DNA from: Chloroflexota bacterium
GTDB lineage: Bacteria > Chloroflexota > Dehalococcoidia > Bin125
DNA: 64,000 nt
Reading direction: 5' to 3'
Assembly: GCA_028875225.1 (NCBI GenBank)
Contig: JAPPFB010000004.1
Coordinates: 1 to 64,000, forward strand
Part shown: in pieces, positions 57,086 through 63,017 of the stretch
Numbering within the stretch: position 1 is the stretch's first letter
Layout of the letters: each line of letters opens with the position of its first letter
Program-made: the position numbers and the translations under genes
The notes under the pieces: generated by a model
What the model was told of the DNA's origin: nothing
The model's input: only the letters and a program-made list of their open reading frames with translations
Database searches by the model: none

Positions 57086-57838
57086 TCAGCTGTGGCTACG
57101 TTGCAGCCGATATCGAAGGAACGCTTCACCGTTCCCGGCCGTAATCGCGTGGACCAGCGACAGCTGCCTGATCCCCTCGGCCGTCGGCTCGCCGGGCCAC
57201 TGGACGGCGGGGTGAGCGCTCTCGCCACCCGCGATCCTCGGCGCGAGGGTGAGGAAGTACTCGTCCACCAGGCCGTGTCGCATCAGATCACCGTTCAGAG
57301 TTGCGCCGCCCTCGACCAGCACCCGCGATGCTCCCAACTCGCCCTTCGTGTGAGCCAGCGCGGCGACCGCTTCGCTTCCCTCTTGCACGCTGACCACCGG
57401 CCGGCCGCGAGTCTCCAATTCGCGGCGAACGGCGTCGGGAGCGGCGCTGGACAAATAGATCACGGCTTCGAATCCGTCGTCGGTGAAGAATCGTCGCTCC
57501 GGCGGCAGATCTCCGCTTCGGGTCAGCACCGCGGCGATCGGTGACGGGGTCATTCCGCGATCCAGACGCCACTGTTCCAGGCCGGGATCGTTGAGCCGGG
57601 CCGAAGTGCCCGAGGCGCGGAATGTCGCGCCGCCGTTCATCACCACGTCGAAGTGGACGCGCAGCTCGCGCATCAGACGCTGGTCGAGCTTCGACCCAAG
57701 GCCGCGCTCGGTGCCGTCGATCACCGTTCGTCCGTCGGCGGACATGACCATGTTGATCGCGACGAACGGCCGATCCGGCGGTGGATCGGGAAAGCTCAGC
57801 GCGGTGTAATCGATCTCTCCGGGATCGAGTTGTGGCAT
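57086..57838 (-). CDS. RibD C-terminal / dihydrofolate-reductase-like reductase
   Basis: The product has 250 residues. FVAINMVMSADGRTVIDGTERGLGSKLDQRLMRELRVHFDVVMNGGATFRA is the standard opening of the RibD_C family, and VLVEGGATLNGDLMRHGLVDEYFLTLAPRI is its NADPH-binding region. It is probably a 5-amino-6-(5-phosphoribosylamino)uracil reductase-like enzyme or a related NADPH reductase without the deaminase half. No riboflavin genes are nearby. Confidence 0.9.
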   Translation of the reverse strand: MPQLDPGEIDYTALSFPDPPPDRPFVAINMVMSADGRTVIDGTERGLGSKLDQRLMRELRVHFDVVMNGGATFRASGTSARLNDPGLEQWRLDRGMTPSPIAAVLTRSGDLPPERRFFTDDGFEAVIYLSSAAPDAVRRELETRGRPVVSVQEGSEAVAALAHTKGELGASRVLVEGGATLNGDLMRHGLVDEYFLTLAPRIAGGESAHPAVQWPGEPTAEGIRQLSLVHAITAGNGEAFLRYRLQRSHS

Positions 57839-57860: not shown

Positions 57861-58103
57861 ATGTCGGATCAGGAGCAGGAAGCCCCGGTAGTCGACGAGG
57901 AAGCGTCGCAAGAGCCCGACCGCAACTTTCCCATCTCCGAGAACGCCCGATTCACGATCGGCGGCAAGCCGCTCGTGCTGGACGACTTCATCGACATCAC
58001 AACCGGCGACATCGCCAGCCGGCCAAGAGTCGAGCCGCAACCGCAGCCCCAACCCCTGCCGAAGCAAGTGATCTGGAACGCCCGCCGACCGGTCGAGGAC
58101 TAG
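57861..58103 (+). CDS. small acidic protein, unknown
   Basis: The product has 80 residues from ATG 57861. The N-terminus is acidic (QEQEAPVVDEEASQEPDRN). The middle contains ISENARFTIGGKPLVLDDFIDITTGDIAS, which looks folded. The tail is Gln/Pro-rich (EPQPQPQPLPKQVIW). It is convergent with the OsmC-like gene and overlaps its stop by 4 bp. No family is recognised. Confidence 0.5.
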   Translation: MSDQEQEAPVVDEEASQEPDRNFPISENARFTIGGKPLVLDDFIDITTGDIASRPRVEPQPQPQPLPKQVIWNARRPVED

Positions 58104-58570
58104 TTGTCCCCGTAGTCGGCTTCCCAGGTGATATCGATGGCGTCCTTGACGCTCTCGTGCGCGGGACAGCCGGGCGCATGGAACTTGACCGCTCTGTCGG
58201 CGGCAGCTCGCTGTTCGTCGGCGATGCCCGGGATGTGGAAGATGACGTGGATCTTCGTGATCCGAATCGTCTGGTTGTCTTCGCCCTCGATCGTGCCCAG
58301 GACGTCGGCCTTGTAGGTGTTGGGGTCGAACTCGACCTTGCGCGCGGACATCGCCCGTGCGAGCGTGCCGTACATTCAACCGCCGACCGCGGCGACGATG
58401 TGGTCGAGCGTGGCCGTCATCGGCGGCGCGGACTCGGGCACGCCGTAGTGCTCCTTGAGCTTGCCCTGGACGCCGTAGACGACCTGCTCAGGCACCTCGC
58501 CGAGCGTCGCATGGCGCAACCCGTTCTTCAGTTCGAGCTTGTTGCGTGAGATGTATTCGAATCTGGGCAT
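58100..58570 (-). CDS. OsmC-like thiol peroxidase with UGA at the peroxidatic position (candidate selenoprotein)
   Basis: One frame of 157 codons is interrupted only by TGA at 58378-58376 (codon 65). The flanks read DHIVAAVGG-UGA-MYGTLARAM. In OsmC-like proteins the peroxidatic Cys sits exactly in this AA.GGC..GTL context at the start of the long helix. The resolving Cys is present at residue 135 (HAPGCPAHESV). The downstream sequence is fully OsmC-like (ITKIHVIFHIPG; KDAIDITWEADY). If UGA is read as selenocysteine, the product is a 156-residue peroxidase; Sec-containing OsmC-like proteins are reported from marine metagenomes. If not, the gene is split by a nonsense codon. A hairpin at 58342-58361 follows the UGA. 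Confidence 0.75.
58342..58361 (-). promoter_or_regulatory. candidate bacterial SECIS hairpin
   Basis: On the minus strand, CGCACGG (58361-58355) pairs with CCGCGCG (58347-58341) with one A/C mismatch. The 7-nt loop GCGATGT (58354-58348) contains GU at 27-28 nt after the UGA, within the range known for bacterial SECIS elements. High local GC makes a chance hairpin possible. Confidence 0.35.
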
Positions 58571-58575
58571 CTGGG

Positions 58576-58616
58576 ACCCCCTCCGCCTGCGGCACCTCCC
58601 CCTTCAAGGGGGAGGG
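58576..58616 (+). repeat. palindromic repeat family 2, copy c
   Basis: It reads GACCCCCTCCGCCTGC, GGCACCTCCCCC, TTCAA, GGGGGAG. It lies between the OsmC-like and aminotransferase genes and may act as a boundary of the upstream transcript. Confidence 0.6.
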
Positions 58617-58626
58617 CATGTAGTGA

Positions 58627-59799
58627 CTAGCCGTTCGCCAACAGGGTACGCATTCTGTCGACGCCTTCGACGATTTCCTCGAGCGATGCGGCGTAGCTGA
58701 AGCGCAGGTAGCCCTCGCCCAGGTGGCCGAAGCTGGTTCCCGCGATCACGGCCAAGCCGGCCTCTTCCAGCAGGCGTTCCTGCAACGTGCGAGCGTCGAT
58801 GCCCGTTTCGGAGATGTTGGGGAAGGCGTAGAACGCACCGAGCGGGGTGACGCAACTGACGCCGGGCACGTCGTTAAGCTCCTTCACGATCACCTGGCGG
58901 CGCTCGTCGAAGGCGGTCGTCATGATGTCGACCGCTTCCTGAGGGCCGTCCAGCGCCTCGATTGCGGCGTACTGCGTGGCGGCGTTGGGACAGGAATAGC
59001 TGTTGATCGCGAGCCGCTCGGCGAAGGGAAAGAGGTCCGGCGGGAAGATGCCGAAGCCCAGCCGCCAGCCGGTCATCGCGTAGGTCTTGCTCCAGCCGTC
59101 GAGCACGATCAAACGGTCGCGGAGCTGCGGATAGTTGAGCCAGGAAGTGTGCTCCAGACCTTCATAGAGGATGCGCGAATAGATCTCGTCGCTCAGGATG
59201 ACCACATCCGGCCATCGTTCGAGGCCCTCAACCAGCCGCTCGACCTGGTCACGAGAATAGACCCCGCCGGTCGGATTGGCCGGGCTATTGAGAATGATCA
59301 ATCGGGTGCGTTCGTTGATCTGGCTCAGCACTTGATCGGGGTCGAACGTAAAGCCGTCAGACTCATGCAGCTCAATCGGTACCGGCGTCGCGCCGGAGAA
59401 GCGGATCACCGACTCATAGATTGGGAAGCCGGGATTCGGATACATGATCTCCGCGCCCGATTCGCCCATCAACAGCGCGGCAAAGAACATCACCGGCTTT
59501 GCTCCTGGCGTGATCAGCACCGATTCCGGGTCCACCGCAGCGCCGTGGCGGCGTTGCAGGTCGCGGGCGACCGCGTCGCGAAGTTCCGGAATCCCGGCGC
59601 CGGGCGTGTAACCGTGCTTGCCGTCGGCGAGCGCCTGCTCGCCAGCGCGGACAATGTTGTCGGGCGTGGAGAAGTCGGGCTGTCCGATGCCGAGATTGAT
59701 GATCGAGCGTCCCTCGGCGGCAAGCTTGTTTGCTCGCGCCAGCACTTCGAACGCGGTCTCCGTGCCCAGGTTCTGCGCTGCGGCTGTGGGGAGCACCAT
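58627..59799 (-). CDS. class I/II PLP-dependent aminotransferase
   Basis: The product has 390 residues. It is of aspartate aminotransferase fold type I: INLGIGQPDF, GYTPGAGIPELRDAV, N175 in NSPANPTGG, D204 and Y207 in ILSDEIY, and Schiff-base lysine K238 in DGWSKTYAMTGWRLG. The final Arg is in YLRFSYAAS. It is close in style to aspartate/alanine/aromatic transaminases of the AspC/AlaT type, and the exact amino donor is not readable. Both ends are clean. Confidence 0.94.
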   Translation of the reverse strand: MVLPTAAAQNLGTETAFEVLARANKLAAEGRSIINLGIGQPDFSTPDNIVRAGEQALADGKHGYTPGAGIPELRDAVARDLQRRHGAAVDPESVLITPGAKPVMFFAALLMGESGAEIMYPNPGFPIYESVIRFSGATPVPIELHESDGFTFDPDQVLSQINERTRLIILNSPANPTGGVYSRDQVERLVEGLERWPDVVILSDEIYSRILYEGLEHTSWLNYPQLRDRLIVLDGWSKTYAMTGWRLGFGIFPPDLFPFAERLAINSYSCPNAATQYAAIEALDGPQEAVDIMTTAFDERRQVIVKELNDVPGVSCVTPLGAFYAFPNISETGIDARTLQERLLEEAGLAVIAGTSFGHLGEGYLRFSYAASLEEIVEGVDRMRTLLANG

Positions 59800-60410: not shown

Positions 60411-61712
60411 TCAGTCACCTGCCTCCACGCCGATCGCCCCATCCTCGCGCAGCGCGGAGATCTCCGCCTCGCTATAGCCGTGCTCGCGGAGGATGGCGTC
60501 GGTATCGCCGTCGAAGATCGGCGAGGGGCCGCTCGCCTCGGGCGGAGAGTCCGACATCCGATAGACCGGACCAACCATCTGCTCGGGACCTGTGAGCGGA
60601 TGTTCGATCTCGGCGATCACGCCAATCGCCTGGACCTGCGGATCGTCGATCATGTCTTCCGGCAGATTGACCTGAGAGGCCGGCGCGCCGACGGCATCCA
60701 GTTTCTCGATCCAATTGGCGGTCGTGTCGCCGCGGAACCGGGCTGCGATTGTCGTTCGCGTTTGCTCGACGACGTCGAGCGATGCGGGGTCGAGGGGATT
60801 GAAGCTGTCGGAGTCTGTGGGATCGTGTTCCTCGGTCAGTGCAATCGCCTGTCGCACCTGTTGTCGATTAAGCGGGGTCAGGCATCCGAGCATGATCGCG
60901 CCGTCGGCGGTCTGGTAGCTGCCGTAGTAGAGCGCGAAGGCTGCGCCGATCATCGAGCGCACGCCGGTGCGCGCCTCAAGGATCTCGCTATACGTGCCGC
61001 CTCGTTGACGAACCGCCTGGACCTCGTCGAGGGAGGATTGCAGGAAGGTCGCGTCGCTGACCGGCAACCGGGCGACGGCGAAGTTCTGCAGCTGCAGCGC
61101 GGCGCCCAGCAGTGACGTTTCGATCCGCTGTCCCCGGCCCGTCCGTTCGCGATGAAACAGGGCGGCGCAGATGGCCATGGCAATGGTCCAGGCGGCGCCG
61201 TAGTCGGCCGGCGTCGTCGCCGTGATCTGGATTGGTCCGCCCTGTTCGTCGACCTTCTCGTCACCGACCATGAGTCCGGAGTAGGCCTGCGCAATGATGT
61301 CCGCTCCGGCGCGCCCGGCCGAGGGGCCCTCCGGTCCGAAGGCCGTGTTCTCGAGGTAGATCAGTTGCGGATTCTGTTCGCTCAGGGTCTGATAGTCGAC
61401 TTGCAGGCGTTCCGCGACGCCGGGCCGCGCGTTGATCAGGAAGACATCGAAGCTGCGAATCAGGCGCTGGACGACCGCGCGCCCCTCTGGCGTCCGCAGA
61501 TTGAGGACGATGCCGCGCTTGCCCCGGTTGTAGACGTGGAAGACCTTCGACTCGTTGGGAATGAACTGTCCCACGCCGCGCGTGGCGTCGCCCTGCGGCG
61601 ACTCGATCTTGACGACGTCCGCGCCGAGATCGGAGAGCATCACGCCGCACATCGGTCCGGCGATGATCTGTGTCAGTTCGAGAACCTTGATCCCGTCGAG
61701 CGGTCCGGGCAT
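60411..61712 (-). CDS. CaiB/BaiF class III CoA-transferase
   Basis: The product has 433 residues. The family opening is GIKVLELTQIIAGPMCGVMLSDLGADVVKIE, followed by NRGKRGIVLNLRTPEGRAVV and DVFLINARPGVAERL. The region TPADYGAAWTIAMAICAALFHRERTGRGQRIETSLL carries the catalytic Asp (D in PADYG). The C-terminus is FDGDTDAILREHGYSEAEISALREDGAIG. It transfers CoA between carboxylates, substrates unknown. It is the downstream member of a tandem with the next gene (9-bp gap) and is closely similar to it. Confidence 0.94.
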   Translation of the reverse strand: MPGPLDGIKVLELTQIIAGPMCGVMLSDLGADVVKIESPQGDATRGVGQFIPNESKVFHVYNRGKRGIVLNLRTPEGRAVVQRLIRSFDVFLINARPGVAERLQVDYQTLSEQNPQLIYLENTAFGPEGPSAGRAGADIIAQAYSGLMVGDEKVDEQGGPIQITATTPADYGAAWTIAMAICAALFHRERTGRGQRIETSLLGAALQLQNFAVARLPVSDATFLQSSLDEVQAVRQRGGTYSEILEARTGVRSMIGAAFALYYGSYQTADGAIMLGCLTPLNRQQVRQAIALTEEHDPTDSDSFNPLDPASLDVVEQTRTTIAARFRGDTTANWIEKLDAVGAPASQVNLPEDMIDDPQVQAIGVIAEIEHPLTGPEQMVGPVYRMSDSPPEASGPSPIFDGDTDAILREHGYSEAEISALREDGAIGVEAGD

Positions 61713-61721
61713 TCAGCGATC

Positions 61722-63017
61722 CTAACCGTCGGCCGGCAAACCGACCGCGCCCGACGACCGCAGTGCGGCAACTTCCTCCTCGGTGTAGCCGTACTCGATC
61801 AGCACGTCGTCGGTGTCGCCGTCGAGCATGGGCGACGGGCCTGAGGCCTCGGTCGGCGTCGCCGACATACGGAAGGCGGGGCCGATCGCCTCTTCGGGAC
61901 CGGTCATTGGATGGTCGAGCGAGCTGATAATGCCCAGCGCCTGCACCTGCGGGTCGTCCAGGATCTCCTCGCCGAAGTTGACCTGCGAGGCCGGCGCGCC
62001 CACTTCGTCCAGCCTGGCGACCCAGTGCTCGGTGGATTGAGACTTGAACAGCGCCGCGATCTCCGACCGTACCTGCGCCACGATCTCCTCTGAGCCGTCA
62101 TCGAAGGGATTGAAGTCGGGCGCGGAGGTCGGGTCCTCCGAAAGGCCGATTGCGTCGCGCACCTGTTGACGGTTGGCGGGCGAGACGCAGCCCAGCATGA
62201 TCGCCCCATCCGAGGTCTCGTAGCCGCCGTAGTAGAGCATGAACGCCCCGCCCACCAGCGAACGCAGGCCGCCGCGCGCGCCTACCATCTCGCGATAGGA
62301 GCCGCCCCGAGAGCGGATCTCGGCCAGTCGGTCGAGGATCGGCTGCTGGATCACGGCATCGACCGCGGGCAGCCGCATCACAAAGGCATTCTGGAGCGTC
62401 AGTGCGCCGCCCAACAGCGACGTGTCGATCTTCTGGCCTTCGCCCGTCCGCTCGCGGTGGAACAGCGCTGCGCAGACGGCCATCGCCGAGATCCAGGCGG
62501 CCGAGAAATCGGCCGGCGTGGTCGCGGTGATCAGGTCCGGTCCGCCGTGCTCGTCCACCTTCTCGTCGCCCGCCATCAGGCCCGAATAAGCCTGCGCGAT
62601 GATGTCGGCCCCGGCGCGGTGCGCAGACGGTCCGTCGGGTCCGTAGGCCGTGTTCTCCAGGTAGATCAGCGCCGGGTTGTGCGCACGCAGGGTGTCGTAG
62701 TCGACGCCGATGCGTTCGGGCACGCCCGGTCTCGCATTGATCAGGAACACGTCGAAATCTGGGATCATACGGTGGACAATGGCTTGTCCCTCGTCGGAGG
62801 CGAGGTTGACGACCATCCCGCGTTTTCCGCGATTGAACGCGTGGAATCCCTTCGACTCGTTGGGCGCGAACTGTCCCAGCAGCCGCATCCCGTCGCCGGT
62901 CGGCGGCTCGATCTTGACCACGTCCGCGCCCATGTCGGAGAGCAGCACGCCGGCGAACGGCCCGGCAATGATCTGCGTGACCTCCAGGACCTTGACTCCA
63001 TCAAGCGCACCAGGCAT
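61722..63017 (-). CDS. CaiB/BaiF class III CoA-transferase (paralogue)
   Basis: The product has 431 residues with the same plan and motifs as the gene at 60411: GVKVLEVTQIIAGPFAGVLLSDMGADVVKIEPP, TPADFSAAWISAMAVCAALFHRERTGEGQKIDTSLLGGAL, and LDGDTDDVLIEYGYTEEEVAALRSSGAVG. The two are clear tandem duplicates. Class III CoA-transferases can act as dimers; a heteromeric pair is possible but unproven. Confidence 0.94.
   Translation of the reverse strand: MPGALDGVKVLEVTQIIAGPFAGVLLSDMGADVVKIEPPTGDGMRLLGQFAPNESKGFHAFNRGKRGMVVNLASDEGQAIVHRMIPDFDVFLINARPGVPERIGVDYDTLRAHNPALIYLENTAYGPDGPSAHRAGADIIAQAYSGLMAGDEKVDEHGGPDLITATTPADFSAAWISAMAVCAALFHRERTGEGQKIDTSLLGGALTLQNAFVMRLPAVDAVIQQPILDRLAEIRSRGGSYREMVGARGGLRSLVGGAFMLYYGGYETSDGAIMLGCVSPANRQQVRDAIGLSEDPTSAPDFNPFDDGSEEIVAQVRSEIAALFKSQSTEHWVARLDEVGAPASQVNFGEEILDDPQVQALGIISSLDHPMTGPEEAIGPAFRMSATPTEASGPSPMLDGDTDDVLIEYGYTEEEVAALRSSGAVGLPADG

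Follow-up and report, generated by a model that had tools for sequence, protein, structure and literature searches.

Enzymes of the OsmC/Ohr superfamily work with a peroxidatic and a resolving cysteine, and their chemistry is established. OsmC-like selenoproteins with a UxxT motif are known from two surveys, Sargasso Sea (PMC1088965) and GOS (PMC2398784), and reviews include them as well (PMC9312934; PMC13188914); selenocysteine (Sec) forms are usually rarer than Cys forms (PMC1088965). In the class Dehalococcoidia, members of NF041052, annotated as "OsmC-related (seleno)protein", contain one TGA each within motifs such as FULLTQ, and judging by this motif NF041052 would correspond to the UxxT family. 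Here we analyzed an OsmC-like gene with an in-frame UGA in a 64,000-nucleotide stretch of DNA from a Chloroflexota bacterium (contig JAPPFB010000004.1), in the following called the window. We consider it highly probable that the product of this gene is a functional selenoprotein belonging to the OsmC/Ohr superfamily, in which UGA 65 is read as Sec by SelB, tRNA-Sec(UCA) and a bSECIS element and Sec65 acts together with Cys135 as a peroxidase.

The window protein shares with the UxxT/NF041052 proteins the PF02566 domain, a Sec-UGA at the peroxidatic position, the second Cys and the bacterial class. It differs in its score against the NF041052 model (19.9 bits versus a cut-off of 95 bits), in its motif, which is UxxGT instead of UxxT, and in its position in the unrooted tree, where its subfamily (support 100/100) and NF041052 (99/95) form separate clades. 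Filing the gene under NF041052 was therefore ruled out by score, motif and tree. The subfamily is also separated from Cys OsmC proteins (100/100), which were retrieved with the NF041052 model, so that the sampling leans towards the NF041052 side. With the Cys-dependent OsmC/Ohr peroxidases (PF02566; TIGR03562 for OsmC, TIGR03561 for Ohr) the protein has the fold and the two redox positions in common, but it has Sec in place of the peroxidatic Cys, and it stays below the cut-offs of the subfamily models (TIGR03562, 12.8 versus 85.8 bits). The initial annotation had pointed to Sec-containing OsmC-like proteins of marine metagenomes; such proteins have indeed been described, but they would belong to the UxxT family (NF041052), which forms a clade apart from that of the window gene. 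Judged by sequence, the window gene belongs to a new subfamily, dominated by Sec forms, within a known kind of selenoprotein. A literature search found no paper naming a UxxGT subfamily or treating selenoproteins of sponge Chloroflexota. As standard gene callers would cut the gene at the UGA, a widespread peroxidase candidate of the Chloroflexota would escape annotation or enter it as a fragment.

An OsmC-like gene with an in-frame UGA codon

The minus-strand frame from 58570 to 58100 contains TGA only once, at residue 65 in the context VAAVGG-U-MYGTLARAM, exactly as the initial annotation had described it, and is otherwise open up to its TAG end (Table 1). The Pfam OsmC model (PF02566) matches the window protein with 38.1 bits (cut-off 27.5), all 24 members of alignment A1 are matched too, and the gene is the only OsmC match found in the genome. 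The second conserved Cys, which had been reported as intact, is present in the context APGCPAHES.

Table 1. Position of the OsmC-like gene, its sequence elements and its neighbors in the window.
Feature	Coordinates	Strand	Remark
OsmC-family gene, proposed selenoprotein	58100..58570	(-)	156 residues + TAG stop; UGA proposed to be decoded as Sec
In-frame UGA, codon 65, at the peroxidatic-Cys position	58376..58378	(-)	TGA in 67/69 homologues
Codon of Cys135, second (resolving) Cys	58166..58168	(-)	invariant, 69/69 homologues
Codons +9 to +19 after the UGA	58319..58351	(-)	zero synonymous change, 15 congeneric genomes
Predicted bSECIS-like hairpin	58341..58361	(-)	apical loop GAU 58352-58350, 23 nt past UGA; one A.C mismatch
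Dispersed G-rich repeat copy	58577..58616	(-)	between aminotransferase gene and OsmC start codon
Upstream gene, class I/II aminotransferase	58627..59799	(-)	same neighbor in 14/14 congeneric loci
Downstream gene, RibD C-terminal-domain reductase	57086..57838	(-)	same neighbor in 14/14 congeneric loci

Homologues in Chloroflexota

Homologues were collected from 393 genomes of the class and, with a profile, from 400 genomes in a search across the phylum; the sensitive search covered Chloroflexota only. This resulted in 69 alignable sequences, with the fragment matches L104 to L107 left out. In the column of codon 65, the position of the OsmC peroxidatic Cys, we found TGA in 67 sequences, a Cys codon in one (L103) and a Trp codon in one decayed copy (L102). 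The G at position +3 after Sec is present in all 69 homologues (UxxGT). The initial annotation had regarded a chance nonsense hit at this codon as unlikely, and this is borne out by homologues that share the TGA column with the window protein down to about 33% identity. Exactly this TGA is also kept in 14 congeneric genomes and in more distant relatives, and no stops elsewhere in the gene were observed in them. The named close relatives are metagenome-assembled genomes of Chloroflexota/Dehalococcoidia, and the bin names suggest that some of them come from marine sponges. A search of plasmids, phages and viral contigs for relatives gave no useful match.

The Cys form L103 shares about 45% identity with its closest relative as well as the second Cys and the flanking residues with the Sec subfamily, and differs from it by Cys instead of Sec in the column. 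In the tree it falls inside the subfamily clade, where its position next to L110 is weakly supported (91/63), and its genome (G722) still contains SelA and SelB. Within the phylum as sampled there are 67 Sec forms for one Cys form, against the usual rarity of Sec forms (PMC1088965). It is likely, as far as the sequences tell, that Sec was gained in this subfamily independently of the UxxT/NF041052 family. For the wider scenario, in which an OsmC lineage with an independent gain of Sec is almost wholly Sec-encoded throughout the Chloroflexota, reversing the usual majority of Cys forms, and the lone Cys member is a reversion, we see an even balance between acceptance and rejection. As Sec occupies the same position in both OsmC clades, which are separate in the tree, the reason for its use there is directly testable.

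The decayed copy L102 (G658:C49) has TGG in the Sec column and has lost both its N-terminus and the near-invariant Arg at +12, while SelA and SelB are kept in its genome; it looks decayed or misassembled. Genome G025 contains three genes of the OsmC type that have an in-frame UGA, two of the UxxGT subfamily and one of NF041052 (L042, L071 and L122). In another genome the gene is present in two near-identical copies separated by about 20 kb (L077 and L111, G637:C1).

Selenocysteine machinery

The genome of the window (3.22 Mb, 29 contigs, 96% complete) encodes SelA (520.6 bits), SelB (324.1 bits), SelD (353.8 bits) and a tRNA-Sec (68.2 bits), for which ARAGORN gave the anticodon tca. All four of the genes named in the initial annotation (selA, selB, selC and selD) are therefore present, and together with the retention of the exact TGA in relatives this supports its reading of the UGA as selenocysteine. 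The selD gene (L020, G000:C23:272746-273687) has an in-frame UGA of its own in the context LARCGGUGSKFGPEG, at a position that we take to be the usual Sec/Cys site of the SelD family. SelD is itself a selenoprotein candidate, and with a UGA at this site the genome would have an independent, recognised selenoprotein.

Furthermore, selA was detected in 32 of the 34 class genomes with the UGA form versus 222 of the 359 others (Fisher p = 5e-5, with ancestry ignored) and in 30/31 UGA carriers outside the class. The three carrier genomes without selA are G023 (81% complete, with SelB), G031 (86%) and G477 (95%), and G023 and G031 are incomplete MAGs.

Predicted bSECIS element

Decoding of codon 65 by SelB and the tRNA-Sec(UCA) would be directed by a bSECIS hairpin that is located just downstream of the UGA within the coding sequence. 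According to the bSECIS model, the hairpin lies 16-37 nt after the UGA with a G early in a loop of 3-9 nt (PMC13188914). This model is passed by 48 of the 67 family copies versus 20.9 expected from codon resampling, and in each clade the consensus fold is stronger than in alignments with resampled codons, of which 0 to 1.5% were as low. For the genus we predict a stem GCGCGGGC/GUCCGYGC with a three-base loop 23 nt past the UGA. The site of this hairpin overlaps with the codons that are frozen in the 15 congeneric genomes (Table 1). Between codons +7 and +18, an interval picked after inspection, one codon is variable versus 8.0 expected, and none of 20,000 permutations was as low; for codons +1 to +14 the synonymous constraint has a p-value of 0.008.

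Outside the genus the stem is shifted about three bases further downstream. In these relatives, position 3 of the Ala+8 codon is paired with position 2 of codon +11, and the pair occurs as C-G, G-C or A-U; the exchange in codon +11 also alters the encoded residue, which is Ala, Gly or Val. As many of the sequences are related by descent, there are few independent compensatory events, perhaps two. A column-permutation test for covariation, in which codons were shuffled within columns, gave no significant result for the genus or clade B, and the case for the SECIS element therefore rests on the frozen synonymous codons, the codon resampling and the few compensatory pairs. The hairpin of the window copy is weaker than those of its relatives (z -0.62 against synonymous shuffles). 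For the bSECIS prediction that the initial annotation had proposed as a check, the window copy gives a divided picture: in one folding frame the loop GAU lies at a distance of 23 nt from the UGA, and a strict bSECIS scan fails in another.

Reading of the UGA codon and proposed function

A TGC or TGT codon is a single step away from TGA and the assembly is a draft, so one might see in the gene a pseudogene or a sequencing error, i.e., an ordinary OsmC gene whose Cys codon has been hit by a nonsense mutation or miscalled. This is very improbable, as the identical TGA recurs in 67/69 homologues from separate assemblies and the frame has no second stop. Moreover, dN/dS in the 15 congeneric genomes is 0.087 upstream and 0.102 downstream of the UGA, and these similar values indicate that the region past the presumed stop is equally constrained. 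For the family, this explanation was rejected on conservation and selection. A genome-wide reassignment of UGA to Trp or Gly, which would turn codon 65 into an ordinary sense codon, could refer to the TGG (Trp) in the decayed homologue L102. We give this practically no weight: TGA also serves as ordinary stop codon and terminates 12 of the 26 long open reading frames of the window, the tRNA-Sec has the UCA anticodon and is accompanied by the full Sec machinery, and the intact sense homologue has Cys rather than Trp or Gly. The reassignment was rejected on stop usage.

What the Sec residue does is a separate matter. The best AlphaFold2 model reached a pLDDT of 78.5 with a shallow alignment (the other four 52 to 59), and Foldseek placed only OsmC/Ohr proteins among its top matches (best E-value 5e-6, TM-score about 0.5). 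Sequence similarity to characterised OsmC/Ohr proteins is low, and a single-sequence phmmer search against solved structures returned noise only. It is unlikely, but deserves attention, that the OsmC scaffold, instead of acting as a peroxidase, has taken on a different Sec chemistry, for example that of a reductase or of selenium/sulfur transfer. This would be in line with the weak similarity to characterised members (12.8 bits against TIGR03562, and matches to solved structures reached by profile only), with the subfamily's own UxxGT motif around Sec and with an aminotransferase and a RibD_C reductase as neighbors instead of stress genes. On the other hand, both OsmC/Ohr redox positions are filled (Sec65, Cys135), the 24 aligned sequences share an N-terminal Arg without exception and the fold matches point to the same superfamily. 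As Sec65 and Cys135 occupy the sites of the peroxidatic and the resolving Cys, a selenol peroxidase with a selenenylsulfide seems to be the most likely mechanism. By analogy to the Cys enzymes, the selenol of Sec65 would attack the peroxide, the oxidised Sec65 would be resolved by Cys135 via a selenenylsulfide, and this would then be reduced by an external thiol. The sequences themselves show the UGA column with its Cys counterpart, the Sec machinery of the genome, purifying selection past the UGA, constrained codons and, in relatives, a supported stem. The insertion of Sec, the activity as a peroxidase, and the substrate and the reductant are parts of this model that we infer, the peroxidase function from the predicted fold and the conserved residues.

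Genomic context

None of the genes beside the OsmC locus, in the window and in the 14 congeneric loci, indicates a substrate. The G-rich repeat in front of the gene has an inverted-repeat arm, and its end GGAGGGGG would occupy the position expected for a ribosome-binding site. The 26-base core of the repeat is present in 45 genomic copies (up to three mismatches), whereas a reversed control pattern gave 0. Elsewhere in the window, positions 60411-63017 contain two adjacent open reading frames of similar length on the same strand, one of which belongs to the CoA-transferase family III (CaiB-like), and this pair looks like a tandem duplication.
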